From NCBI GenBank assembly GCA_001899205.1, contig MKVL01000005.1:245335-309334 (forward strand): a stretch of 64,000 bases of DNA, written 5' to 3'. The notes under the pieces were generated by a model. That model searched no databases. It was not told the origin of the DNA and saw only the letters and a list, made by a program, of their open reading frames with translations. The DNA comes from Mesorhizobium sp. 65-26. Lineage in GTDB: Bacteria; Pseudomonadota; Alphaproteobacteria; Rhizobiales; Rhizobiaceae. Every line of letters starts with the position of its first letter. The first letter of the stretch is position 1. Positions 34,362 through 49,233 of this stretch are shown here, piece by piece. Made by a program: the position numbers and the translations under genes.

Positions 34362-35018
34362 ATGCCAGCCGATTCGACCACCATCGTGCCCGAACTGTTC
34401 ACCAAGGGCTGGATCTTCATCCGGGGCGTTCCGGCCATGAAGTTCCTGCCGCCGGAAGGACCGCCCGAGATCGCTTTCGCCGGCCGCTCGAACGTCGGCA
34501 AGTCGTCGCTGATCAACGCACTGGTCGCGCAGAAGGGGCTGGCGCGGACCTCCAACACGCCGGGGCGCACGCAAGAGCTCAACTACTTCGTGCCGGACGG
34601 ATTTTCCGGCGAGGGCGCCGACCTGCCACCGATGGCTCTGATCGACATGCCCGGCTACGGCTACGCCAGCGCGCCGAAGGACAAGGTCGATGCCTGGACG
34701 AAACTCGTCTTCGACTATCTCAAGGGACGCGTCACGCTGAAGCGAGTCTATGTGCTGATCGACGCCCGCCATGGCATCAAGGCCAAGGACGAGGAGGTGC
34801 TGTCGCTGCTCGACAAGGCGGCCGTCTCCTACCAGATCGTGCTGACCAAGACCGACAAGATCAAGGCCGCCGGCGTGCCGCGGCTGATCGAGGAGACGCT
34901 GGCCAAGATCAAGAAGCGGCCGGCCGCCTTTCCTACCGTGCTCGCAACCTCGTCGGAAAAGGCCGAGGGCCTGGACGCCCTGCGCGAGGCGATCGTGCTC
35001 GTCGCCAATGGCGGCTAG
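34362..35018 (+). CDS. engB: Ribosome-biogenesis GTPase EngB (YihA/YsxC)
   Basis: 218 residues. GTPase motifs: G1 GRSNVGKS at 41-48, G3 DMPG at 95-98, G4 TKTD at 162-165. Also the family's [14 protein letters not shown] switch I region. Needed for late 50S subunit assembly. ATG 34362 is preceded by GGAGG. In many Rhizobiales engB follows yidC directly and is followed by argB (from memory). Here about 5 kb separates it from yidC and about 23 kb from argB. Convergent with the FAD oxidoreductase, 2 nt apart. Confidence 0.96.
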
Positions 35019-35020
35019 AG

Positions 35021-36307
35021 CTAAGCCGCCCTGCTCTCGTCGAGGCGGTCCTGCAGCATGCTCCAGGGAAGCAGCGCGTTCGGCGCGTGCTTGAGCAGGG
35101 CATGGAAGGGTATGCTGCCCGGAGCTGCATAGGGGATGGGCAGGCTGTCCGGATCAGCGCCCGCCGCCCAGTCGGCGACGACGCCACCCATCACGGTCGT
35201 CATCGCTATGCCGCGCGCGTTGCAGGCGAAGCCGGCTATCATGCCGGGTCCGAGCTCGACGAGATGCGGCAGGAAGTCGGGCGCGACGGCGGCCATGCCG
35301 GACCAGGCATATTCGATCGGCGGGATTTCAGGCAGGTCGAGCTTCTCGGCAAGCCGCCGATGGATGGCGCGCGGCACACGCCGTTCGGCGCCCGGGCTGA
35401 AAATATGCATGCCGCCGGTGATCAGCCGGTTCGCCGCATCGAAGCGGAAGGTGAAGAGGTTGCGCCTCGTGTCGGAGACGCACTGATTTCCAGGTAGCAG
35501 GCGGCGGCGCACCGACGCCGGCAGCGGCTTTGTCGCCAGCTGGAAGACCCGCAGCGGAAAATATGTGCGCGCCAATTGCGGAAAGAGATCGCCGCCGTAG
35601 GCGTTGGTCGCCACGAAGACCTTGCCGGCACGGATCGATCCGCTCCCCGTCGTCAAACGGTAGCCGTCGGCCTCGCGACCGATCCCTTCCACGCGCGTGT
35701 TCTCGAATATCCGCGCGCCCTGGGCCTCGGCGGCGTCGGCCAGGCCGCGCGCGTATTCGACCGGATTGATCACGCCGCCGGAGCGATCCATCCAGCCGCC
35801 TGCGTAGCCTTCGGCGCCGGTCAGGGCCTTCACCGCGTCGCGATCCAGAATGACGGCCGGGCGCCCCCTGGCCGCCCATTGCCGGGCGCGCGCCTGCACC
35901 TTCGCGAAAGCCTGCGCCGTCGGCGCGGGCTGTATCCAGCCGCTCTGGTCGGCCGCGCAATCGATCGCGTGCCGCCGGACCAGTTCGAAGACGAGGTCGC
36001 CGCTGCCGCAGGCAAGGTTTATCAGCCTTTCGCCGCGCTCGGCGCCGAGTTGCGCCACGATGTCGTCCGGATCCTTCTTGGCAAAGTTCGGCACGACGAA
36101 GCCGGCATTGCGGCCCGTCGCGCCCCAGGCCACGACCTCCGCCTCGAGGACAGCCACCGAGAGCCCCTTGCCGGCCGCGTGCAACGCCGTCGACAGGCCG
36201 GAGAAGCCGCCGCCAACGATCACCAGATCGACATCGAGCGCGCCATCCAGGGTGGGCCGGCGCCGCTGGTTGCGCGCGACCGCGTGCCAAAGCGAGATGT
36301 CTTTCAT
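35021..36307 (-). CDS. FAD-dependent amine/D-amino-acid oxidoreductase (DadA/PuuB-like)
   Basis: 428 residues of the DAO family. The FAD-binding motif VIVGGGFSGLS has its glycines at 32-37, followed by VVAWGATGRNAGF; the C-terminal FAD segment is AGFACNARGIAMTT. Such enzymes oxidise D-amino acids, sarcosine, hydroxyproline isomers or gamma-glutamyl-amines. ATG 36307 overlaps the livM stop (ATGA), so it is translationally coupled to the importer. It likely performs the first oxidation of the imported compound or of the product of the epimerase at 44315. Substrate not determined. Confidence 0.9.
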   Translation of the reverse strand: MKDISLWHAVARNQRRRPTLDGALDVDLVIVGGGFSGLSTALHAAGKGLSVAVLEAEVVAWGATGRNAGFVVPNFAKKDPDDIVAQLGAERGERLINLACGSGDLVFELVRRHAIDCAADQSGWIQPAPTAQAFAKVQARARQWAARGRPAVILDRDAVKALTGAEGYAGGWMDRSGGVINPVEYARGLADAAEAQGARIFENTRVEGIGREADGYRLTTGSGSIRAGKVFVATNAYGGDLFPQLARTYFPLRVFQLATKPLPASVRRRLLPGNQCVSDTRRNLFTFRFDAANRLITGGMHIFSPGAERRVPRAIHRRLAEKLDLPEIPPIEYAWSGMAAVAPDFLPHLVELGPGMIAGFACNARGIAMTTVMGGVVADWAAGADPDSLPIPYAAPGSIPFHALLKHAPNALLPWSMLQDRLDESRAA

Positions 36308-37266
36308 GATGGCTTTCGTTGTCCGAGCCGGATGCGACGGCGCTGCGTCATGTTGCCGAACAGTCCGTTGGGCCGGAACAGCAGGATCAGGCACAGCATG
36401 ACGCCGATCGCGACGATCTGCAGGGAGGCGGCGCGCGCCTGCTGTTCGGGGGCGAAGAGCGTGGCGGTGAGCGCGCCCGATCCGGCCCAGATCGCCCAGA
36501 CGAGGATCGAGCCGACAATGGCGCCGATGTTGCTGCCGGAGCCGCCGACGATCAGCATGACCCAGACCTGGAAGGTCAGCATGGGCGCGTAATTGTCGGG
36601 CGCGATGAAGCCGATGAAATGCGCCTGCACGGCGCCGGCGAGGCCCATCAGCGCGCCGCCGACGGCAAATGCCTGGACGCGGTAGAAGCGGGCGCTCTTG
36701 CCGAGCGAAATTGCGGCGCGCTCATCCTCGCGCAACGCCTTCAACACCCTGCCCCACGGGCTTTTCGACAGATGCTGGAGCGCCAGATAGGCAACCAGCG
36801 TCACCGCGGCGACGATCGCGACGTTGGACAGATTGAACAGGAGCGGTGTTTCGGCGAGCGCCGCGAAGGGCCGTGGAATGAAGCCGATGCCAAAGGCACC
36901 GCCGGTCAGCGATTGCGCGTTGAGCGCGACGAGCTGCACCACCACCGCCACGCCGAAGGTGGTGATGGCGAGATAGTCCGACTTCAGCCGCAGCGTGGCG
37001 AAGCCGGTGATGGCAGCGGCGACGCCGGCGACAAGCATGGCGCCGAGCCAGCCGGCGAGGATCGGCAGCTCGAATCCGCCGAAGCGGGCAGCGTCGTGCG
37101 GCGTCGTCAGCAGGGCCGAGACATAGGCGCCGATGGCCACGAAGCCGGCGACGCCGACATTGAACAGGCCGGTCAGTCCCCATTGCAGATTCAGCCCGAG
37201 GCTGATGAGGCTGAAGATCAGGGCCGTGGTGAGGAAGAAGGCGCCGTAGCCGATCAGGTCGATCAT
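36304..37266 (-). CDS. livM: Branched-chain-type ABC importer permease LivM
   Basis: 320 residues, 8-10 hydrophobic segments, LivM signature LKSDYLAITTFGVAVVVQLV and the ATPase-coupling loop WGRVLKALREDERAAISLGKS. Overlaps LivH upstream and the FAD oxidoreductase downstream by 4 bp each. The family imports branched-chain amino acids but also many other amino acids, urea, amides and aromatic acids. The neighbouring catabolic genes suggest a specialised ligand. Confidence 0.93.
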   Translation of the reverse strand: MIDLIGYGAFFLTTALIFSLISLGLNLQWGLTGLFNVGVAGFVAIGAYVSALLTTPHDAARFGGFELPILAGWLGAMLVAGVAAAITGFATLRLKSDYLAITTFGVAVVVQLVALNAQSLTGGAFGIGFIPRPFAALAETPLLFNLSNVAIVAAVTLVAYLALQHLSKSPWGRVLKALREDERAAISLGKSARFYRVQAFAVGGALMGLAGAVQAHFIGFIAPDNYAPMLTFQVWVMLIVGGSGSNIGAIVGSILVWAIWAGSGALTATLFAPEQQARAASLQIVAIGVMLCLILLFRPNGLFGNMTQRRRIRLGQRKPS

Positions 37267-38171
37267 CTTTCGCGTCTCCCGAAAAGACCAATTGGCCGGA
37301 CGAACAGCACCGCCATGAGGATGACGAAGGAGACCGCCGCGCGCCATTCGGCGCCGATGAACTGCACCGCGGCCGCTTCGGCCAGGCCGATGATCAGGCC
37401 GCCCAGCACGGCGCCCGGAACGCTGCCAATGCCACCGAGAATGGCGGCGGCAAACATCGGCAGCAGCATATCGAAGCCCATCAGCGGCCGGATCTGCACC
37501 AGTATGCCGACCATGACGCCGGCGACGCAGGCCAGCGCGCCGCCGAGCAGCCATGTGGCGCGGACCACCCTGGCAACATCGATGCCGACGACGCGCGCCA
37601 GCGCCGGATTCTGGCTGACCGCCTGCATCGAGCGGCCGATATGGGTGCGTGTCATCAGAAGATGCGTGGCGCTCACCAGAAGCACGGTCAGGACCAGCAG
37701 GGCGATCTGGTCCGGCGTGACGCGGATGCCGAACCCGACCGGCATGGCGATCTGGATCGCACGCGAGAAATAGGTCGGCCGCGACGTGAAGATGAACTCC
37801 AGCAGGCTGCGCAGCGCCATCGAGGCGCCGAAGCTCGCCATCACCACGATGATGGCCTGGCCCTTCTCCCGCAGGCGCGAGAACAGCACGAAGTCGAGCA
37901 GCAGCGCCATCAGGCCCGTCAGGGCGCAGCCGATGATGACGGCGATGATGAGCGGCCAGCCGAAGGACAGCGCGCCGATGGGCGCCACCTTGCCGAACAT
38001 GGCGCCAATGGCGCCGACCACGACCAGCGTGGCATAGGCGCCCCAGGCCATGAAATCGCCATGAGCGAAGTTGGAGAAGCGCAGGATCGAATAGGTCAAC
38101 GTCACGCCGATGGCGCCGAGCCCGATCATCGAGCCGGTCAGCAGGCCATCGACAAGGAACTGCAGGCTCAT
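37263..38171 (-). CDS. livH: Branched-chain-type ABC importer permease LivH
   Basis: 302 residues, about eight membrane helices. LivH signature near the N-terminus (LTGSMIGLGAIGVTLTYSILRFSNFAHGDFM) and coupling loop LMTRTHIGRSMQAVSQNPALARVVGID. Overlaps LivF and LivM genes by 4 bp on each side, a tight operon. Forms the channel with LivM. Confidence 0.94.
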   Translation of the reverse strand: MSLQFLVDGLLTGSMIGLGAIGVTLTYSILRFSNFAHGDFMAWGAYATLVVVGAIGAMFGKVAPIGALSFGWPLIIAVIIGCALTGLMALLLDFVLFSRLREKGQAIIVVMASFGASMALRSLLEFIFTSRPTYFSRAIQIAMPVGFGIRVTPDQIALLVLTVLLVSATHLLMTRTHIGRSMQAVSQNPALARVVGIDVARVVRATWLLGGALACVAGVMVGILVQIRPLMGFDMLLPMFAAAILGGIGSVPGAVLGGLIIGLAEAAAVQFIGAEWRAAVSFVILMAVLFVRPIGLFGRRER

Positions 38172-38914
38172 GCGTCGCCTCCCCTTGGCGCGTGCGGACG
38201 CTGGCCGAGATAGAGCTCGGCCACCACGGGATCGTCCCAGAGCCGGGAGGCGACGCCCTCATGCGCGTCCTTGCCCTCGACCAGCACATAGGCGCGGTCG
38301 CCGATGGCGAGCGCCGCCTTGGCGTTCTGCTCCACCAGCAGGATGGTGACGCCCGACTTGCGGATGTCGCTCAGCATCGAGAACACCATCGAGACGAATT
38401 TCGGCGACAGCCCCGCCGAGGGCTCGTCCAGTACCAACAATTTCGGATCGACGATCAGGGCGCGGGCGACCGCCAGCATCTGGCGCTGACCGCCCGACAG
38501 ATTGCCGGCGCTGACCCGGCGAAACGCCTTGAGATCGGGGAACGTCTCGTACATGCGCGCGATGCGCTCGGCGGCCTCCCTCGGCTTCAGGATGCCGCCG
38601 GCTGTCTTGAGATTGTCCTCGACGCTCATCAGCGGAAAGATGTTCTCGGTCTGCGGCACGAAGGCCAGGCCCATGCCGACCATCTTGTGGGCGGGAACGG
38701 CGGTGATGTCGCGGCCATCGAGCATGACCCGGCCGGCCGAGACCGGCACCAGCCCGGCGATGGCCTTGATGAAGCTCGACTTGCCGGCCCCGTTGGGGCC
38801 CAGGACGACGACGATCTCGCCACGGTCGACGCGAATCGAGGCGCCGCGAACGATCGGTACGCCGGGCTCGTAGCCGGCGACGAGATCGCGTACTTCCAGC
38901 ACGGGCTCGCTCAT
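38168..38914 (-). CDS. livF: ABC importer ATPase LivF
   Basis: 248 residues. Walker A GPNGAGKSS, signature LSGGQRQMLAVARAL, Walker B LLVLDEPSAGLSP and a switch histidine-like VEQNAKAAL. The order and length fit LivF. Overlaps livG and livH by 4 bp. Confidence 0.94.
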   Translation of the reverse strand: MSEPVLEVRDLVAGYEPGVPIVRGASIRVDRGEIVVVLGPNGAGKSSFIKAIAGLVPVSAGRVMLDGRDITAVPAHKMVGMGLAFVPQTENIFPLMSVEDNLKTAGGILKPREAAERIARMYETFPDLKAFRRVSAGNLSGGQRQMLAVARALIVDPKLLVLDEPSAGLSPKFVSMVFSMLSDIRKSGVTILLVEQNAKAALAIGDRAYVLVEGKDAHEGVASRLWDDPVVAELYLGQRPHAPRGGDA

Positions 38915-39720
38915 GCGTCGCCTCCCGGATCGGCCGCGCCGCCAAGATAGGCTTCGATGACACGCGGGTCGCGCGCGACCTCGCTCGCGGTTCCCTCGCA
39001 GATGAGCTGGCCGCTCGCCATGACCAGCACGCGGTGGCAGAGCCGGGTCACCATGTCGATGTTGTGCTCGATGAGCAGGAAGGTCACACCGCGATCGTTG
39101 ATGCCGCGAATGCGGTCCATGATGACCTCCAGCAGCGTCGCGTTGACGCCGGCCGCCGGTTCGTCGAGCAGGATGATGGCGGGATCGGCCATCATGACGC
39201 GCGCGAGTTCGAGAAGCTTGCGCTGGCCACCGGAAAGAACCCGTGCTGGCTCGTGCGCCAGCCGCGACAGGGAGACGAGGTCGAGCAGGTCCATAGCCTT
39301 GTCCTCCGCCGCCCTTTCCTCGGCAGCGACGCGGAGCGGACGCAGGAAGTTGGCAAGCAGGCTCTCGCCCGTTTGTCCCTGCCGCGCAAGCATGACGTTC
39401 TCGAGCAGGCTGAGATTGGCGAGTGGCCTGGGGATCTGGAAAGTACGGCCAAGACCCCGGCTGAGGCGACGATGGGCGGATTCGCCGGAAACGTTGACGC
39501 CGTTCAGCACGATGTCGCCGCCGCTCGGCGGAAGGCTGCCGGCCAGCAGATCGAACATGGTGGTCTTGCCGGCGCCGTTGGGGCCGATCAGGCCGAGGAT
39601 CTCGCCGCGACGCACGTCGAAGGACACGTCGTTGACCGCCAGCAGCCCGCCAAAACGACGAACGACGTGCTTCGCGGTGAGCACGGGGGCGCCAACAGCC
39701 ACCTCGCCGGTTGAAACCAA
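38911..39720 (-). CDS. livG: ABC importer ATPase LivG
   Basis: 269 residues. Walker A GPNGAGKTT, LivG-type insert and GLGRTFQIPRPLANLSLLENV (Q loop), signature LSGGQRKLLELARVM, Walker B IILLDEPAAGVN, switch LLIEHNIDMV. The start is TTG 39720 with AGGGA 8 nt upstream; the nearby ATG at 39728 is out of frame. First gene of the left arm, divergent from GntR across a TGATCA-rich operator. Confidence 0.92.
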   Translation of the reverse strand: MVSTGEVAVGAPVLTAKHVVRRFGGLLAVNDVSFDVRRGEILGLIGPNGAGKTTMFDLLAGSLPPSGGDIVLNGVNVSGESAHRRLSRGLGRTFQIPRPLANLSLLENVMLARQGQTGESLLANFLRPLRVAAEERAAEDKAMDLLDLVSLSRLAHEPARVLSGGQRKLLELARVMMADPAIILLDEPAAGVNATLLEVIMDRIRGINDRGVTFLLIEHNIDMVTRLCHRVLVMASGQLICEGTASEVARDPRVIEAYLGGAADPGGDA

Positions 39721-39769
39721 GTCCTCATTCCCTCTGGCCAGGGGCGGTCGGATCCGCCCTCTTCAATTT

Positions 39770-39797
39770 TGATCAGTGATCACACTTGCGATGATCA
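39770..39797. promoter_or_regulatory. TGATCA triple-repeat operator between livG and GntR
   Basis: The palindrome TGATCA occurs at 39770-39775, 39777-39782 and 39792-39797 (centre spacings 7 and 15 bp) in the only divergent promoter region of the locus. Regulators of the GntR/FCD family bind short palindromes in such positions. Confidence 0.6.
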
Positions 39798-39831
39798 CAA
39801 TATTGGGCTTAGGATATTTCGCAAGCTAAAA

Positions 39832-40581
39832 ATGGAACGGGGCATGCTGAGGTCGACCGCCGAGAAGAACGATGGCTTTGCCGCCCAGCTCGCGCCGGTG
39901 GGGCGCGAAACGGTGCAGGACCGCGTCTACAGCGAGCTGCGACGCGCGCTGATCAGCGGCCTGTTCGAGCCGAGCCAGGTGCTGACCATCCGCACGCTCG
40001 CCGATGCGCTGGCCACCAGCACCATGCCGGTTCGCGAGGCGCTTAGCCGGCTGGTGACCGAGAAGGCGCTGGAGGCCCTGCCCAATCGCTCGGCGCGCGT
40101 TCCGCCGATCACGCCCGAGCGCATGGACGACCTCCTGCGGGCGCGGATCCTGATCGAGGGCGAGGCCATCACGCTGGCCGCCACCCGCATGACGCCCAGC
40201 CAGGTCGCCACCGTCGACGCGATGCTGGCCGAATGGGACGAGATCCGCGAACTGGTCGACGAGAAGGATGTGGACCAGGAGCTGGTGCTCAACCAGCGCT
40301 TCCACTTCGATATCTACCGCGCCTGCGGATCATCCGTGCTGATGCCGATGATCGAGAGCCTGTGGCTGCAGTCGGGCCCATGCATACGCGTGGCGATCTA
40401 CGCTTTCTCGGAAGCCCGCCAGGTCGACACGGCACACTATCACCGACGCATCGTCGCGGCGCTCCAGGCCAAGGACCCGCAGGCGGCGCGCGAGGCGCTG
40501 GTCGCCGACATCAGCCGGCCCTTCGCCTATCTGCGCGACAAGCTGAGCGCCAGGACCAACACACCGGAGCCCGCCAAATGA
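39832..40581 (+). CDS. GntR family (FCD domain) transcriptional regulator
   Basis: About 249 residues. The winged helix at about 28-90 includes VQDRVYSELRRALISGLFEP and TIRTLADALATSTMPVREALSRL. The FCD effector domain has candidate metal ligands in LNQRFHFDIYRACGS and HYHRRIVAAL. ATG 39832 is chosen, with ATG 39844 as alternative; the frame upstream runs through the operator, so an earlier start is unlikely. Its stop overlaps the next gene (ATGA). Position in the middle of a bidirectional catabolic locus makes it the likely local repressor. Confidence 0.92.
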   Translation: MERGMLRSTAEKNDGFAAQLAPVGRETVQDRVYSELRRALISGLFEPSQVLTIRTLADALATSTMPVREALSRLVTEKALEALPNRSARVPPITPERMDDLLRARILIEGEAITLAATRMTPSQVATVDAMLAEWDEIRELVDEKDVDQELVLNQRFHFDIYRACGSSVLMPMIESLWLQSGPCIRVAIYAFSEARQVDTAHYHRRIVAALQAKDPQAAREALVADISRPFAYLRDKLSARTNTPEPAK

Positions 40582-41066
40582 CGACGCGCGCGATACGCAT
40601 CACCGAACCCAAGTCCGGCCTCGCGGTCTCGGCGCCCCTGCTTGACGGCAAGGCGCCCGAGAATGCCGCCTTCCTGTGGGACTATCTCAAGGAGCCACGC
40701 ATCGTGGGCGGCATCCACGCCATGTGGACGGGTCCGGAGATCTCCTGCCCGATACCGGCCGACCACCTCAAGGACGCGTCCTACGCCAGGCCGCTGCCGC
40801 CGGAGAACGCGACGCTTACGCCGCAGCCCGGCGACATCGTGCTTTCCTACGTGCCGCCGCGCATGTGGGGCGGCAATCCCAACGCCATCTTCGACATCGG
40901 CCTGTTTTACGGCGCGGGAGCGCGCCTGCTTTTCCCGATCGGCTGGCTGGCGGGCAGCATCGTGGCCCAGGTGCAGGCGCATGAGCGCGACGCGCTGGCC
41001 GCCGCCTGCGGGGTCATCCGCAGGAACGGCGCCTGCGACGTCACCTTCGCGCGAACCGAGGTCTGA
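40578..41066 (+). CDS. DUF3830 family protein
   Basis: 162 residues, matching the cyclophilin-like DUF3830 family from memory (WGGNPNAIFDIGLFYG near the C-terminal half). Members accompany amidase, hydantoinase and amino-acid catabolic genes; no reaction is established that I know of. Overlaps GntR by 4 bp and is 1 nt from the next gene, so co-translated. It may bind or hydrolyse a small amide or cyclic intermediate (speculation). Confidence 0.72.
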   Translation: MTTRAIRITEPKSGLAVSAPLLDGKAPENAAFLWDYLKEPRIVGGIHAMWTGPEISCPIPADHLKDASYARPLPPENATLTPQPGDIVLSYVPPRMWGGNPNAIFDIGLFYGAGARLLFPIGWLAGSIVAQVQAHERDALAAACGVIRRNGACDVTFARTEV

Positions 41067-41067
41067 G

Positions 41068-41415
41068 ATGGACGACGACAGTTTCGAACTCTACGATCTG
41101 CGCGTCGAAGCCGTCATTCCCGAGGGCAAGCCGATCTATTGCGGCGCCAGGGAGGGCGACTATTTCGAGCTGCGCGGCGAGATGCTGACATTGCCGCCGG
41201 GCCAGGGCTTTTCCATCTATTCCCTGTCCGCCGTGCTGCCGCTGCTGGCCGCCAAGCAGCGACCCACCCACAAGAACGACTGGATGACCTCGGACGCCGA
41301 GATCGCCTGCCCGGATCCGAACTGCGCCAGCCGGCTAAGGATCGTGAGGCTCGGCAAGCGCCGCTTCAGCCATGCCGACACGACAGCAGTACCATTGCCG
41401 AAAGAGGGCGCGTAG
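41068..41415 (+). CDS. TIGR04076-family small protein
   Basis: 115 residues. Pattern ELYDLRVEAVI near the N-terminus, GDYFELRGEMLTLPPGQGFSIYSL, a central segment LPLLAAKQR, then DWMTSDAEIACPDPNCASRLRI with two cysteines in a CPDPNC motif that may bind metal. This resembles TIGR04076 proteins of unknown function found in catabolic loci. 1 nt from the genes on both sides, so in the same transcript. Confidence 0.7.
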   Translation: MDDDSFELYDLRVEAVIPEGKPIYCGAREGDYFELRGEMLTLPPGQGFSIYSLSAVLPLLAAKQRPTHKNDWMTSDAEIACPDPNCASRLRIVRLGKRRFSHADTTAVPLPKEGA

Positions 41416-41416
41416 C

Positions 41417-42469
41417 ATGACCCGAACCTTCGAACTCACGCCGGGCTATGCCATTTCCCGCGTCATCCGGGGCGGCTGGCAACTGGCCGGAGGCCACGGC
41501 GCGATCGATCGCGGGCAGGCCGTGACGGACCTCGTCGCGGCCTTCGACGCCGGTATCACCACCTATGACTGCGCCGATATCTATACCGGCGTCGAGGAGC
41601 TGATCGGCGCGGCGCGGCAGCGGCTGGCCAATGAGTGCGGCGCCGACGCGGCGGCGCGGATGAAAGTTCACACCAAGCTGGTGCCGGACCTGGAGGTGCT
41701 GCCGAAGATCAGCCGGCAATATATCAGGGGCATCGTCGAAACCTCGCTACGGCGACTGGGCGCCGAACGGCTCGACCTCGTGCAGTTCCATTGGTGGGAC
41801 TATTCGCAGCCGGCCTATGTCGACGCCATGGGCTGGCTCAACGAGATGCACCTGGAAGGCCGCATCCGCAACGTCGGCGTCACCAATTTCGACGTGCCGC
41901 GCCTCGCCGAGATCGTCGCCGCCGGCGTGCCGCTGGTCAGCGAGCAACTGCAATACTCCGTGCTCGACCAGCGGCCGGCCGGCGCGCTGACCGATTTCGC
42001 CCGCGCGAACGACATGACGTTCCTCTGCTACGGCACCGTTGCCGGCGGCTTCCTCAGCGAGAAATGGCTCGGCGCCCCGGATCCCGAAATGCGCGTCGAG
42101 AACCGTTCGCTGGTCAAATACAAGCTGATCATCGATGATTTCGGCGGCTGGGCGTTGTTCCAGGAGATGTTGCGCACCCTGAAGGCGGTCGGCGACAGGC
42201 ACGGCGCTGACATAGCCAGCGTCGCCAGCGCCTGGGTACTGCGCCAGCCACTGGTCGGCGCCGTCATCGTCGGCGCGCGCAACCAGCAGCACGCGCTGGC
42301 CAACGCTGCGATCATGGACCTCGAGCTCGACAAGGACGACCTCGCCGTCATCCAGGCGGTGATCGACAAGAGCAGCGGGCTGGAAGGCGACGTCTACACG
42401 CTGGAGCGCGACCGCGCCGGCCGGCATGGCTCGATCATGCACTACAATCTGAACGCGGGTAAGAAATGA
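41417..42469 (+). CDS. Aldo/keto reductase
   Basis: 350 residues of the (beta/alpha)8 aldo/keto reductase family. Catalytic tetrad candidates are Asp51, Tyr56, Lys87 and His125 (TTYDCADIYTG, VHTKL, VQFHWW). The NADP-binding segment near VIVGARNQQHALANA is retained. Would interconvert a carbonyl and an alcohol in the pathway. GAGGGC lies 7 nt before the ATG; overlaps the next gene by 4 bp. Confidence 0.9.
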   Translation: MTRTFELTPGYAISRVIRGGWQLAGGHGAIDRGQAVTDLVAAFDAGITTYDCADIYTGVEELIGAARQRLANECGADAAARMKVHTKLVPDLEVLPKISRQYIRGIVETSLRRLGAERLDLVQFHWWDYSQPAYVDAMGWLNEMHLEGRIRNVGVTNFDVPRLAEIVAAGVPLVSEQLQYSVLDQRPAGALTDFARANDMTFLCYGTVAGGFLSEKWLGAPDPEMRVENRSLVKYKLIIDDFGGWALFQEMLRTLKAVGDRHGADIASVASAWVLRQPLVGAVIVGARNQQHALANAAIMDLELDKDDLAVIQAVIDKSSGLEGDVYTLERDRAGRHGSIMHYNLNAGKK

Positions 42470-42900
42470 GCCTGTTCCACAAGGCCAGCGCGGAAATCGT
42501 GGCCCTCCACCGTTTCTTCGTCGAGTGGTACGATAAGGCGACGGCGGACAGTGCCGATTTCGGCCTTTTCGAGCGTGCGATGGGAGCCGGCATGCGGATG
42601 ATCCCACCCTCGGGCGCCATTCTCGACCGTGAGGCGGTCGTCGGCTACGTGCGCGCCAACAAGGGCGCCTTCGACGGCGACTTCGACATCGAGATCACCG
42701 ACATCCATCCCGTCTGGGAAGACGGCCACACCGTGCTTGTCACTTACGTCGAGCGGCAGCAGCGCGCCGGCGCAAGAACGGCGCGGCTGGCCTCGGCATT
42801 CTTCATTGAAAATCCATCGGCGCCGAACGGCGTCGAATGGCGCCACCTGCATGAGACCTGGATGCAGGAAGGTGACAGCGGACGACTGGGTTCAAACTAG
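42466..42900 (+). CDS. NTF2-like / SnoaL-DUF4440-type protein
   Basis: 144 residues, cone-shaped NTF2-like fold pattern (VALHRFFVEWYDKATADSADF, then FDIEITDIHPVWEDGHTVLVTYVE and WRHLHETWMQ). The fold serves as an isomerase, dehydratase or binding protein for small molecules. ATGA overlap with the aldo/keto reductase places it in the same operon. No catalytic residues assigned. Confidence 0.7.
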   Translation: MSLFHKASAEIVALHRFFVEWYDKATADSADFGLFERAMGAGMRMIPPSGAILDREAVVGYVRANKGAFDGDFDIEITDIHPVWEDGHTVLVTYVERQQRAGARTARLASAFFIENPSAPNGVEWRHLHETWMQEGDSGRLGSN

Positions 42901-42927
42901 AGATCAAACGCAGAATGGGGAACCAAA

Positions 42928-44190
42928 ATGAAGACAACCATGCTTAAGCTAACCGCCGCCCTGCTGCTTGCCGGCACGGCGAGCGTCGCACACGCCGCCG
43001 ACTGCAAGATCACTGTTGGCGTGGTGATGGAACTGACCGGCCCGGCGGGCGAATACGGCCAGGCCGGCGCCAAGTCCGTTGAGATGGCCTTCAAGGACAT
43101 CAACGACGCCGGCGGCGTCGACGGCTGCACCCTGGCGACCGACACGCGCGACAGCCAGAGCACGGGCAATGTCGCGGTCGACGCCGCCACCCAGCTCGTC
43201 CAGGTCAAGAAGGTGCCGGCCATCATCGGCGGCATCATCTCCTCGGTGACGATCCCGATCCTCACCTCCGTCACCGCGCCGGCCAAGATCGTCCAGGTCT
43301 CGCCCGCCGCCTCCTCGCCGACGCTGACCCAGCTCGGCCGTGACGGCAAGACCAACGGCATCTTCTTCCGCACCATCACGTCGGATGCGCTGCAGGGCGT
43401 CGCGGCGGCCAAATACGCCATCGACAGCGGTTTCAAGAAGCTGTCGATCATCCACGTCAACAACGACTTCGGCGTCAACATGTCGGCCGAATTCACCAGC
43501 GCCTACAAGGCTCTGGGCGGCACCATCATCTCCGACACGCCCTATAACGAGAAGCAGTCGACCTATGCCTCCGAGGTCACAGCCGCCATGGCGGGCAGCC
43601 CGGACGCGCTCTACCTGATCAGCACGCCGGTGGATGGCGCGACCATCGCCCGCACCTGGATCTCGCAGGGCGGCGTGCAGAAGTTTCTGCTCAATGACGG
43701 CATGAACAACCCCGACTTCATCGAATCCGTCGGCGCCGAATATCTCAACAATGCCTACGGCACCTCGTCCGGCACCAGCCCGACCAAGTCGACGGAGTAT
43801 TTCAACGCCAACTACAAGGCTTTCTCCGGCGGTATCGAGCCGACCAACCCGGCCGCCGACCGCGCCTATGACGCCGGCGCCATCGTCGGCCTGGCGATCG
43901 CGGTTGCCGGCGGGCCGGACCCGGCCAAGATCAAGGATGCCGTCTACAAGGTGGTCGATCCCAAGGGCGAGCCTATCTTTGCCGGCAAGGAGGAGTTCGC
44001 CAAGGCGCTCAAGCTGATCAAGGAAGGCAAGCCGATCCGCTACGAAGGCGTCATCGGGCCCGTCAACTTCGACCAGTATGGCGACATCACCGGCCCGTTC
44101 CGGCTGTGGAAGATCACCGACGGCAAGGTTACGACCGCCGGCGAGATGTCGATGGAAGACGTCGCGGCGCTCAAGGCCAAGATCAAGTAG
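42928..44190 (+). CDS. Periplasmic binding protein of the Liv-type ABC importer
   Basis: 420 residues. Signal peptide 1-23 (KLTAALLLAGTASVAHA-A), then a type I periplasmic-binding (LivJ-like) fold: VGVVMELTGPAGEYGQAGAKS, AIIGGIISSVTIPILTSVTAP, IIHVNNDFGVNMSAEF. Its permeases and ATPases (livGFHM) are on the opposite arm of the locus. Ends with a strong hairpin that may protect the mRNA so that more binding protein than other subunits is made. Confidence 0.94.
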   Translation: MKTTMLKLTAALLLAGTASVAHAADCKITVGVVMELTGPAGEYGQAGAKSVEMAFKDINDAGGVDGCTLATDTRDSQSTGNVAVDAATQLVQVKKVPAIIGGIISSVTIPILTSVTAPAKIVQVSPAASSPTLTQLGRDGKTNGIFFRTITSDALQGVAAAKYAIDSGFKKLSIIHVNNDFGVNMSAEFTSAYKALGGTIISDTPYNEKQSTYASEVTAAMAGSPDALYLISTPVDGATIARTWISQGGVQKFLLNDGMNNPDFIESVGAEYLNNAYGTSSGTSPTKSTEYFNANYKAFSGGIEPTNPAADRAYDAGAIVGLAIAVAGGPDPAKIKDAVYKVVDPKGEPIFAGKEEFAKALKLIKEGKPIRYEGVIGPVNFDQYGDITGPFRLWKITDGKVTTAGEMSMEDVAALKAKIK

Positions 44191-44214
44191 CACGCGGCCC
44201 GATCCCGCATACGC

Positions 44215-44245
44215 ACCAGCCGGGCGCGCCTCGCGCCCGGCTGGT
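44215..44245 (+). terminator. Perfect 14-bp hairpin after the binding-protein gene
   Basis: ACCAGCCGGGCGCG (44215-44228) pairs with CGCGCCCGGCTGGT (44232-44245) around a CCT loop, without a following T-run. More likely an mRNA-stabilising or attenuating structure inside the operon than a full terminator. Confidence 0.6.
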
Positions 44246-44314
44246 AGATACCACAAGCCAGCGCGGCGGAGCCGCCGCGCCGGCGCCCGTCAAAACCCGA
44301 ACCATCCCGTGCCG

Positions 44315-45361
44315 ATGCAAACCGCCCTCGATCTGTTGCGCTCCCGAAACCCGGCCTTCCGCTCCCTCGAAGTGGTCGATTCGCACACCTGCGGCCAGCC
44401 GACCCGGGTTATCCTTTCGGGCCACGGCCTGGCGCCCGGCACCGATCCGGCCGCCGCCCGCGAAACGCTTCGCGGCGAGCGCGACTGGGTGCGCACCGTC
44501 TCGGTGATGGAGCCGCGCGGGCATCGCTCGATGTTTTCCGTCGCGCTGATCAAGCCGACGCGCGAGGGCGAGGAGTTCGGCGTCGTCTTCATGGACGCCT
44601 CGACCTATCCCGACATGTGCGGCCACGCCACGATCGGCACGGCGACGACGCTGCTGGAGCTGGGACTCGTGACGCCGCCGCGCGACCGCTTCTCCGGTCC
44701 GTTCGAGTTCGGCCTGAGGACGCCGGCCGGCCGCATCGCGCTGCGCGCCACGCTGGAAGACGGCCGCTGCAAGGCGGTCGCCTTCGCATTCGACGGCGCC
44801 TACTTCCTCGGAAGCTTCGACATTGCCCCGTCCGGCGACGCCCCGCTCGCCGTCGACGTCGCCTATGCCGGCCAGTGGTACGCCTTCATTCCGGTTTCGG
44901 TAGCCCGCTCCGCTATCGAGGCCGCCAATATCGGCGACCTGATCGCAGCCGCGGTTCCGGTGCGGGAAGCGCTGGCGGCGCGAATGGCCGTTTCGGGCTC
45001 GGCCGACGCACCCGCGCCCATCGTCGGCAACATCGTTTGGACCGGCCTTCCCAGCCATCCGGCCGCCCGGCACAGGAACGTGCCGATCTCGTCTTCGGGA
45101 TCGTTCGACCGCTCGCCTTGCGGCACCGCGACCTGCGCGCGCATGGCTACGCTTGTCGCCAAGGGCGAGCTGGGGGTCGGCGAAACCTTCGTCAACGAGG
45201 GCCTGCTCGGCACCATCTATCGCGGCGTGCCGCTGCGCGAAGCCACGCGGGAAGGACATCAGGCCATCGTCGCCGAGGTCGAGGGCAGCGCATGGATTTC
45301 GGCCTGCGGCACGCTGCTGGTCGACCCGACCGACCCGCTCGGCACCGGCTACCTCGCGTAG
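44315..45361 (+). CDS. Proline racemase family protein (hydroxyproline 2-epimerase-like)
   Basis: 348 residues. Both catalytic cysteines are present: Cys102 in PDMCGHATIG and Cys269 in DRSPCGTATCA. Members with two cysteines racemise or epimerise proline or hydroxyproline; those with threonine at the second place are dehydratases. That argues for epimerase activity here. No clear ribosome site precedes ATG 44315 (GTG 44309 also in frame). Together with the FAD oxidoreductase (35021) it would invert an imino/amino acid to the D-form for oxidation. Exact substrate unproven. Confidence 0.87.
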   Translation: MQTALDLLRSRNPAFRSLEVVDSHTCGQPTRVILSGHGLAPGTDPAAARETLRGERDWVRTVSVMEPRGHRSMFSVALIKPTREGEEFGVVFMDASTYPDMCGHATIGTATTLLELGLVTPPRDRFSGPFEFGLRTPAGRIALRATLEDGRCKAVAFAFDGAYFLGSFDIAPSGDAPLAVDVAYAGQWYAFIPVSVARSAIEAANIGDLIAAAVPVREALAARMAVSGSADAPAPIVGNIVWTGLPSHPAARHRNVPISSSGSFDRSPCGTATCARMATLVAKGELGVGETFVNEGLLGTIYRGVPLREATREGHQAIVAEVEGSAWISACGTLLVDPTDPLGTGYLA

Positions 45362-45404
45362 CGCCAGGCCCAGCGATCGAACCCGCTCGAACAGGAGACC
45401 CGCC

Positions 45405-46574
45405 ATGTCGTATCTCGCCCGACGCATCACCCAGGGTCGCAAGAAGTCCTACGGCATGTTCGCCAAGGCGGCGGCAATCACCGAGCCCGGCCGCGATCTT
45501 ATCCACATGGAGCTCGGCAGCCCGCATGCCGACACGCCCCTGCCGGTCAAGCAGGCGACGATCGACGCCCTGCTTGCCGGCAACGTGCATTATTCGCATT
45601 TCCAGGGGCTGCCGAAGCTGCGCGCGGCGCTCGCCGACAAGCTGCGCGCCAAGAACGGCCTCGACATCGACGCTTCGGAAATCGTGGTGACCAACGGCCT
45701 GACCCACGCATCGTTCGCGTCCATCATGGCGCTCGTCGATCCGGGCGACGAGGTGATCCTGCTCGAGCCCTACTATCCGCAGCATCTTGGCAAGATCGAA
45801 CTGGCCGGCGGCAAGGCGGTGTTCGCCGAGCTGGACGCCGCCAACAATTTCTCGATCGACCCTAAGCGGATCGAGGCCAGGATCACGCCCGCCAGCAAGA
45901 TGCTGTGCCTGGTCAACCCCTGCAATCCGACAGGGCGCGTCTACAGCCGCGCCGAGCTGGAGGCGCTGGCCGACATCGCCATCCGCCACGACCTGGTGGT
46001 GATCTCGGACGAGGTCTACGAGGAGATTCTGTTCGACGGCGCCAGGCATATATCCATCGCCTCTTTGCCGGGCATGCGCGAGCGCACCGTGTCCATGTTC
46101 GCCTTCACCAAGAGCTTCGCCATGGATGGATGGCGCATCGGCTACCTGGCGGCCCCGAAGGAAATGATCGAGGGCATCCTCAAGATCACCACCAACGACG
46201 TCACCCACGTCAACACCTTCATCCAGGAAGGCGCCCTCGCGGCGGTGACGGGGCCGGACAGCATCCTGGCCGAGCTGGTGCATGAGGACAAGATGAAGCG
46301 CGACCTGGTCGTGTCGCGCCTCAACCAGATGGCGGGCGTCACCTGCGAATGGCCGCAAGGCACGATCTACGCCTTCCCCAGGATCGCGGAGCTCGGCCTG
46401 CCGGCGCAGCAACTGGCCGAGCTCATCCTCGAAAAGACCGGTGTCGTCGTCGAAGCCGGCAGTTTCTACGGTCCCGCCGGCGAGGGCCATCTGCGGGTGT
46501 GCTTCGGATCGCAGTCGATCGAGCGGATATCCGAGGCGATGGATCGCCTGCAAAGGTTCTTCGGCTCGCTTTAG
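45405..46574 (+). CDS. Class I/II PLP aminotransferase
   Basis: 389 residues of aspartate-aminotransferase fold type I. PLP lysine Lys236 in TKSFAMDGWRIG, NPCNPTG, the pyridine-contacting SDEVYEEILF with Asp202, and the C-terminal carboxylate arginine in GHLRVCFG. AGGAG precedes ATG 45405. Last gene of the right arm. Ends convergent with ftsK, separated by a hairpin. Confidence 0.92.
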   Translation: MSYLARRITQGRKKSYGMFAKAAAITEPGRDLIHMELGSPHADTPLPVKQATIDALLAGNVHYSHFQGLPKLRAALADKLRAKNGLDIDASEIVVTNGLTHASFASIMALVDPGDEVILLEPYYPQHLGKIELAGGKAVFAELDAANNFSIDPKRIEARITPASKMLCLVNPCNPTGRVYSRAELEALADIAIRHDLVVISDEVYEEILFDGARHISIASLPGMRERTVSMFAFTKSFAMDGWRIGYLAAPKEMIEGILKITTNDVTHVNTFIQEGALAAVTGPDSILAELVHEDKMKRDLVVSRLNQMAGVTCEWPQGTIYAFPRIAELGLPAQQLAELILEKTGVVVEAGSFYGPAGEGHLRVCFGSQSIERISEAMDRLQRFFGSL

Positions 46575-46611
46575 AGGGCAACGTTCGGAACAGCTGGCAT
46601 CGCGCAACGCG

Positions 46612-46632
46612 GCGGGCCGGAACGGCCCGCCA
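46612..46632. terminator. Hairpin between the convergent aminotransferase and ftsK genes
   Basis: GGCGGGCC (46612-46619) pairs with GGCCCGCC (46625-46632), 5-nt loop. No T-run on either side, so it is probably a weak or bidirectional terminator. Confidence 0.45.
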
Positions 46633-46644
46633 GAACGCCGGCGC

Positions 46645-49233
<2,589 letters not shown>

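Follow-up and report, generated by a model that had tools for sequence, protein, structure and literature searches.

How do the genes of one divergent locus in a Mesorhizobium genome belong together, and what would they do with the compound that they import? The locus occupies positions 35021-46574 of the window, by which we mean the whole stretch of 64,000 nucleotides analysed here (Mesorhizobium sp. 65-26, contig MKVL01000005.1). Importer-plus-oxidase loci are common, and this one also holds two families of unknown reaction, DUF3830 and TIGR04076. We propose that it serves the import and breakdown of one amino-acid-like compound. A GntR regulator would bind paired TGATCA sites and, in the presence of the compound, would allow joint expression of the two arms. 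LivJ would capture the compound and LivGFHM would import it. An FAD oxidase would convert its C-N bond to an imine, DUF3830 would act on this imine, most simply by hydrolysis, and the aldo/keto reductase (AKR) AKR1 with TIGR04076 would reduce or oxidise the resulting carbonyl or hydroxyl group. In a second group of loci (type 2), an AKR fused to a Rid-like domain would do the work of the FAD enzyme and DUF3830. All of these reactions are predicted from families, fold and gene context, and we put the probability of this reading at about 0.4. A literature search, with most subscription journals outside it, found no description of this locus.

The locus is real, and its gene grouping is beyond chance. 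A DUF3830 query matched 158 named stretches; from these, the 80 best were retrieved with flanks of up to 10 kb per side, and the window proteins were placed on them by tblastn. These 80 relatives were selected by DUF3830 and many are closely related to one another. livG, GntR, DUF3830, TIGR04076, AKR and LivJ occur together in 79/80, and the exception, L073, begins at a contig end. Gene by gene, GntR was found in 79, LivJ in 80, livM, livH and livF in 78 each, livG and the FAD gene in 79 each, DUF3830 in 80 (by selection), TIGR04076 and AKR in 80 each, and the NTF2-like gene in 77; contig ends account for some of the gaps (L073, L122). The highest median identity in the locus is that of TIGR04076 (89%, range 85-92). 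The FAD gene shares the strand of the left arm in 56 loci; in 23 others it lies downstream of LivJ and is only 41-46% identical to the window enzyme. The original prediction had counted 12 genes around one promoter; 13 are present, and the single bidirectional locus stands. Two arms diverge from a shared gap of 111 bp, as follows.

35021-36307, minus strand: FAD-dependent oxidoreductase, DAO family (Pfam DAO over cut-off; 79/80 relatives).
36304-37266, minus strand: livM-type permease (Pfam BPD_transp_2 over cut-off).
37263-38171, minus strand: livH-type permease (Pfam BPD_transp_2 over cut-off).
38168-38914, minus strand: livF-type ATPase (NCBIfam UrtE/LivF-like, under cut-offs; synteny).
38911-39720, minus strand: livG-type ATPase (ABC_tran, BCA_ABC_TP_C; TTG start assumed, a later start possible).
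39721-39831, no strand: divergent promoter region (TGATCA at 39770, 39777 and 39792).
39832-40581, plus strand: GntR (FCD) regulator (Pfam GntR and FCD over cut-off).
40578-41066, plus strand: DUF3830 protein with a predicted cyclophilin-like fold, candidate imine-handling enzyme (PF12903, 106 bits, cut-off 26; swap pattern).
41068-41415, plus strand: TIGR04076 protein (NCBIfam 54.6 bits, cut-off 33).
41417-42469, plus strand: aldo/keto reductase AKR1 (Pfam Aldo_ket_red; D..Y, K and H motifs at 51, 85 and 123, which we take to be catalytic).
42466-42900, plus strand: NTF2-like (DUF4440-like) small protein (DUF4440 23.4 against a cut-off of 25.2; 77/80 relatives).
42928-44190, plus strand: LivJ-type substrate-binding protein (Pfam Peripla_BP_6 over cut-off).

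Two further genes end the right arm and are described below. The family names first assigned were supported by Pfam and NCBIfam scans, apart from the NTF2-like gene, which falls just under the Pfam cut-off. The livF, racemase and aminotransferase genes were scanned with NCBIfam only; among the matches listed for them none reaches its cut-off, and their superfamilies are clearly matched. The predicted ATGA overlaps were present at 4/4 junctions of the left arm (livGFHM and the FAD oxidoreductase) and at two of the right arm, GntR/DUF3830 and AKR/NTF2; the other right-arm junctions are two 1-bp gaps and then gaps of 27, 124 and 43 bp. The transporter is split between the arms as proposed, livGFHM left and LivJ right, and this is kept in relatives. 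The surrounding genome is Mesorhizobium-like (6.84 Mb), with a GTPase-like gene on one side of the locus and an ftsK-like gene on the other (both named by eye).

Independent occurrence of the two arms in other genomes, which was to count against a single locus, was largely not seen. Among the 98 loci fetched that share this LivJ type (at least 59% identity), importer and LivJ occur together apart from the contig ends L073 and L122, and GntR is present except in L073 (contig end), L174, L202 and L214. Genes do shift between arms: L169 and L214 have LivJ in the same arm as the importer genes, and type-2 loci exchange the FAD and DUF3830 genes.

The shared gap gave the regulatory part of the answer. 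livG and GntR could be located as a divergent pair in 79 relatives, and 79/79 have two TGATCA copies in the gap between them, against a background of 0.11 per 200 bp in the same loci. The two copies lie 15 bp apart in the 79 relatives, with an operator consensus of TGTGATCACACTTGC.TTGATCAC. The window has three copies; those at 39777 and 39792 form the 15-bp pair, and the third is at 39770. The window genome has no exact copy of the 10-base TGTGATCACA found in the relatives; its own site reads AGTGATCACA. Since the relatives share kinship, the count is not a probability. Eight of the nine type-2 gaps read hold TGATCA, seven of them with a single TTTGATCAAA; Paroceanicella L175 (type 2) has two copies 15 bp apart, and Microvirga L174 (type 2), in which no GntR was found, has none in its gap. 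Caballeronia L169 has two copies with a spacing of 16 bp, and in the deep type-1 locus L151 one copy was seen at the margin of the sequence read. The putative operator site has been kept for longer than its surroundings. Because the paired TGATCA is conserved in the gap, a GntR promoter common to both arms is well supported, with GntR as the predicted binding protein; the proposal of one bidirectional GntR-linked locus was thus strengthened by conservation and by the operator. No wider GntR regulon was evident: of 7 copies of the double site in the genome, one is that of the locus, and of the other six, three were read, two lying inside called genes and one in a gap, with no locus-like neighbour (by eye, no family scan). 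A promoter scan of 35000-46700 returned no sigma-70-type site.

What is imported was approached through LivJ. The window LivJ is closest to that of Mesorhizobium composti (90%) and is distant from solved binding proteins (best E 1.2e-19). Its Ser105, Ala127, Ser129 and Asp257 align with residues of solved amino-acid-binding proteins, positions that presumably contact the amino acid there. All four are kept in 32/32 rows of the LivJ clade, and the Asp is found in 0/13 rows outside it. Relatives found by TIGR04076 or AKR searches included 14 type-2 loci, with the layout GntR-TIGR04076-AKR1-LivJ diverging from livGFHM and a second AKR of about 485 residues (which follows LivJ in L174 and L202). 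Type-2 LivJ is 64-79% identical to the window LivJ, exceeding all four other importer parts in 14/14 loci; in 13/13 further TIGR04076-AKR loci that have a LivJ, the four other parts are all more similar to those of the window than LivJ is. The LivJ similarity and the shared residue set point to one kind of compound as the probable import of type 1 (the loci with DUF3830, as in the window), of type 2 and of the Caballeronia locus alike. The kept residues also lend support to the amino-acid-like ligand that had been predicted.

These loci share a LivJ type and carry one of two enzyme sets. The second AKR (AKR2) of type-2 loci is a fusion with a Ribonuc_L-PSP (Rid) domain. In the 98 fetched loci, DUF3830 was present in 84 (FAD in 83) and the fusion in 14, with both in 0 and neither in 0. 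L114 is the DUF3830 locus without an FAD gene within its 15 kb, and L147 has an FAD-like stretch of 33% identity about 6.5 kb from LivJ. Because the 80 relatives had been chosen by DUF3830, a plasmid collection searched by LivJ is the fairer test. With LivJ as the only query (E up to 1e-100), 20 plasmid records were retrieved: 5 have DUF3830 and FAD near LivJ (two from one strain; three placed by coordinates only) and 15 have the fusion there (two from one strain; five placed by coordinates only), again with both in 0 and neither in 0 near LivJ. One fusion record has a DUF3830 relative of 31% about 0.9 Mb away, and another an FAD relative of 41% about 0.38 Mb away. No DUF3830 match was found anywhere in the type-2 genomes G340 and G343. 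The fusion (E up to 1e-80) occurs in 3 of 61 relatives and in 0 of 25 genomes with a type-1-like AKR1, the 25 being 24 with an AKR1 of at least 75% and G485, read as L151; only some of these loci were read. The AKR-Rid-like fusion at L150:13385-14842, whose Rid-like domain lacks the deaminase arginine, is matched in 18 plasmid records, in one of these only partially.

The fold of DUF3830 bears on what is being exchanged. Its model (pLDDT 81.8) best matches the solved DUF3830 protein 3kop (E 3.4e-11). Next come KslB (E from 1.1e-6) and McbB (E 6.2e-6), and cyclophilins follow with E values of 6.8e-4 and above. KslB and McbB are Pictet-Spenglerases; TM by query is 0.57-0.68 for matches with E up to 1e-3. 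The condensation by McbB passes through an imine. As described in part of PMC7024544, McbB joins tryptophan with an aldehyde. His47, Glu54 and Glu76 of DUF3830 are invariant in an alignment of 38 sequences, align with 3kop, and are present in 10/10 divergent members. Together with the swap, the modelled fold suggests that DUF3830, as a putative enzyme, acts on the imine from FAD oxidation. No paper on DUF3830 was found in the literature searched. A distinct DUF3830 locus on a Deinococcus plasmid (L172) has M24 peptidases, a class V aminotransferase, an FAD oxidoreductase and DUF3830 in a row.

Several observations weigh against an imine role exchanged between the two sets. KslB and McbB are matched over only part of their length (TM by target 0.35-0.40), and the DUF3830 profile gave no sequence match to either at E up to 10. 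Elsewhere, DUF3830 mostly has other neighbours: among 63 neighbour proteins scanned, 11 matched polysaccharide deacetylase and 1 the DAO family, and a general DUF3830-DAO pairing was rejected. Type-1 loci are mostly one clade, and the counts are therefore not independent. A LivJ tree was drawn with 45 rows: 18 of the 84 available type-1 loci, 14 of type 2 and 13 others. The module label needs three changes on it, and the starred branches force three. Two of these rest on the long branches L169 and L214, the latter oddly composed; when both rows are dropped, one change suffices (drawn tree, by eye). Caballeronia L169 has FAD and DUF3830 without TIGR04076 or AKR, and the type-2 locus of Thioclava (L178) has a further Rid-family gene adjoining LivJ. 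The Rid-like domain of the fusion carries Asn at the position of Arg-105 of Rid deaminases. Arg-105 is taken as a mark of deaminase activity in passages of PMC5619798; with Asn in its place, the domain would not be a classical imine deaminase. It may thus be that the FAD enzyme with DUF3830 and the fusion are not equivalent, that they handle different intermediates or a co-imported compound, and that their exclusivity reflects lineage and chance. The few independent swaps, the replaced Arg and the Caballeronia locus all speak for this explanation. Because both sets together, or neither, were never seen in the fetched loci or in the plasmid records, and the fusion is so rare among the 61 relatives and absent from genomes with a type-1-like AKR1, we consider it rather unlikely.

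We then come to the step after the imine, which in our proposal belongs to AKR1 and TIGR04076. AKR adjoins TIGR04076 on the same strand in 25/27 distinct loci outside types 1 and 2, the misses being Rhodococcus L173 and L213. The 27 are those outside both types as first fetched; L136 repeats L148 and is uncounted, and L202 and L214 are included yet lie in the LivJ clade. The pair stands with Liv, TRAP (L210) or MFS (L148) importers, and near peptide importers in L209 and the haloarchaeon L171. With several importer types beside it, TIGR04076-AKR looks like a portable two-gene module, as judged from gene order. It was seen in L148, L149, L152, L153, L170, L171, L181 and L202-L220 (not L213). 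TIGR04076 itself gave no convincing sequence match (best E 0.34), and a fold search of the PDB with its AF2 model (pLDDT 78.8) brought up nothing within E 0.001 (best 0.25); the one paper on it in the literature searched offers only a guess at its function. A metal or disulfide protein, as a rule, was rejected by a haloarchaeal member that has no cysteines of the PDP motif.

The neighbourhoods of these families also raise the alternative of an amide-, lactam- or peptide-derived substrate, with the FAD enzyme and DUF3830 working on the hydrolysis product or with the amide itself imported. Relatives of the FAD enzyme (about 40%; 38 records matched) adjoin L-2-amino-thiazoline-4-carboxylic acid hydrolase-like and M20 aminoacylase genes in 3/5 regions read (L227, L229, L231), and the others have HyuA/HyuB (L230) or an N-carbamoyl amino acid hydrolase (L228). 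TIGR04076-AKR relatives occur near an M14 peptidase (L208, L209) and with HyuA/HyuB in L215 (11677-15430), where separate AKR2 and Rid-like genes are present. The M24 peptidases beside the Deinococcus DUF3830, and a hydantoinase B gene about 3.5 kb past LivJ in the type-2 Acuticoccus locus L177, point the same way. However, none of the conserved core genes of types 1 and 2 is an amidase, a peptidase or a hydantoinase (family scans did not extend to the flanks of the 80 loci). The L215 LivJ is just 42% identical, and no match to LivJ was found in L208 or L209. We regard such a substrate as unlikely.

The end of the right arm concerns the suggestion of a hydroxyproline-like substrate and includes three features.

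44188-44317, plus strand: two strong hairpins in the LivJ/racemase gap (fold z -3.9).
44315-45361, plus strand: proline-racemase-family enzyme, accessory (Cys102, Cys269; 4/80 relatives).
45405-46574, plus strand: class I PLP aminotransferase-like enzyme, accessory (superfamily match; 3/80 relatives).

The two hairpins in the 124-bp gap indicate a looser link of the last two genes to the rest of the arm. Being very stable, they perhaps protect the binding-protein mRNA or damp the last two genes. The racemase was found in L065, L068, L080 and L095 (on the other strand in L095) and the aminotransferase in L076, L080 and L086. Epimerisation and transamination, first taken as core steps, are not supported as such, and of the expected joint conservation of DUF3830, TIGR04076 and racemase, only the first two are kept together. 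In the window strain, the racemase may widen use to the other enantiomer, and the aminotransferase may move the amino group. The best model for the latter is GntC cyclodehydratase (317 bits, cut-off 415), and a transaminase role is predicted from its superfamily. It was rejected as a bound member of the locus: in 60 relatives (E up to 1e-90), its sole other close relative, in G448 (63%), lies far from that genome's locus.

An alternative reading is catabolism of the proline, hydroxyproline or pipecolate type, in which the substrate would be epimerised, oxidised by the FAD enzyme and reduced. The nearest NCBIfam model of the FAD enzyme is L-pipecolate oxidase AmaA (285 bits, below the cut-off of 600). 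LivJ aligns with Atu2422, which binds Pro, Ala and gamma-aminobutyric acid (GABA). The racemase has both catalytic cysteines, and its close relatives beyond the window (E up to 1e-60 in 61 relatives, 1e-75 in 385 class members, 1e-70 in plasmids) were found only in the L095 genome, where the gene adjoins the locus; those of L065, L068 and L080 came via the DUF3830 search. Its specificity sites 1, 4 and 5 are Phe74, Asn239 and Ser259, identical in all four relatives (by eye). According to parts of PMC4364671, 4-hydroxyproline 2-epimerase has His at site 4, Cys or Tyr at site 5 and no Phe at site 1, and proline racemase has Phe at sites 1 and 5. The window enzyme differs from the former at these sites (229 bits, NCBIfam cut-off 376) and shares with the latter Phe at site 1 but has Ser at site 5 (221 bits, cut-off 556). 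Its second-cysteine motif (45107-45136) reads CGTATC, against CGTGS and CGTGT in two solved enzymes, which adds a third cysteine. Neighbours of the epimerase named in sections of PMC4113996 are DAAO, DHDPS and aldehyde dehydrogenase. Family scans of the locus genes gave no match to DHDPS, aldehyde dehydrogenase, OCD or MLD2, partners named in the same sections, and a DAO-family gene only. In addition, the genes around LivJ in type-2 loci include no FAD-enzyme relative. The racemase residues, the missing enzymes and the rarity of the racemase rule against hydroxyproline, and this whole type of catabolism appears very unlikely. Since the hydroxyproline part loses support, the regulatory part gains it and the observation is confirmed, the original prediction is partly supported.

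Our proposal of import, FAD oxidation and imine handling can be extended to a bolder claim: that DUF3830 is a new imine-acting enzyme class on the Pictet-Spenglerase fold, partnered by an FAD oxidase and swapped wholesale with an AKR-Rid-like fusion in a new amino-compound pathway, of which TIGR04076-AKR is the most constant part. Taken whole, this claim is on the doubtful side. The swap pattern and the fold match nevertheless give DUF3830 a concrete, testable job. If this job is the right one, other DUF3830 genes beside amine or amide enzymes would be open to rereading, and one binding protein could be enough to identify a compound on which many Rhizobium and Mesorhizobium strains draw.

The locus can be compared with five known systems. 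As in the 4-hydroxyproline 2-epimerase pathway, a two-cysteine racemase-family enzyme lies near a DAO-family oxidase; unlike it, the racemase is accessory with different residues, and no DHDPS-type deaminase or aldehyde dehydrogenase was matched among the locus genes. The FAD enzyme resembles AmaA over nearly its full length within the DAO family, but scores less than half of that model's cut-off. The Rid (YjgF/UK114) imine deaminases resemble the C-terminal domain of the type-2 AKR2 fusion, from which they differ by their Arg-105, and this domain is not in the window locus. The Pictet-Spenglerases McbB and KslB are nearly twice as long as DUF3830, are biosynthetic and have no sequence match to it, whereas the fold of the DUF3830 model is like theirs. 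Compared with the LivFGHMJ (HAAT) importers, such as those with E. coli LivJ and Agrobacterium Atu2422, the subunits are split across two arms and LivJ is distant from the solved ones. Like these importers, the locus contains all five subunits (two BPD_transp_2 permeases, two ATPases and a Peripla_BP_6 binding protein), and its LivJ keeps residues that, in alignment, line up with amino-acid contacts.

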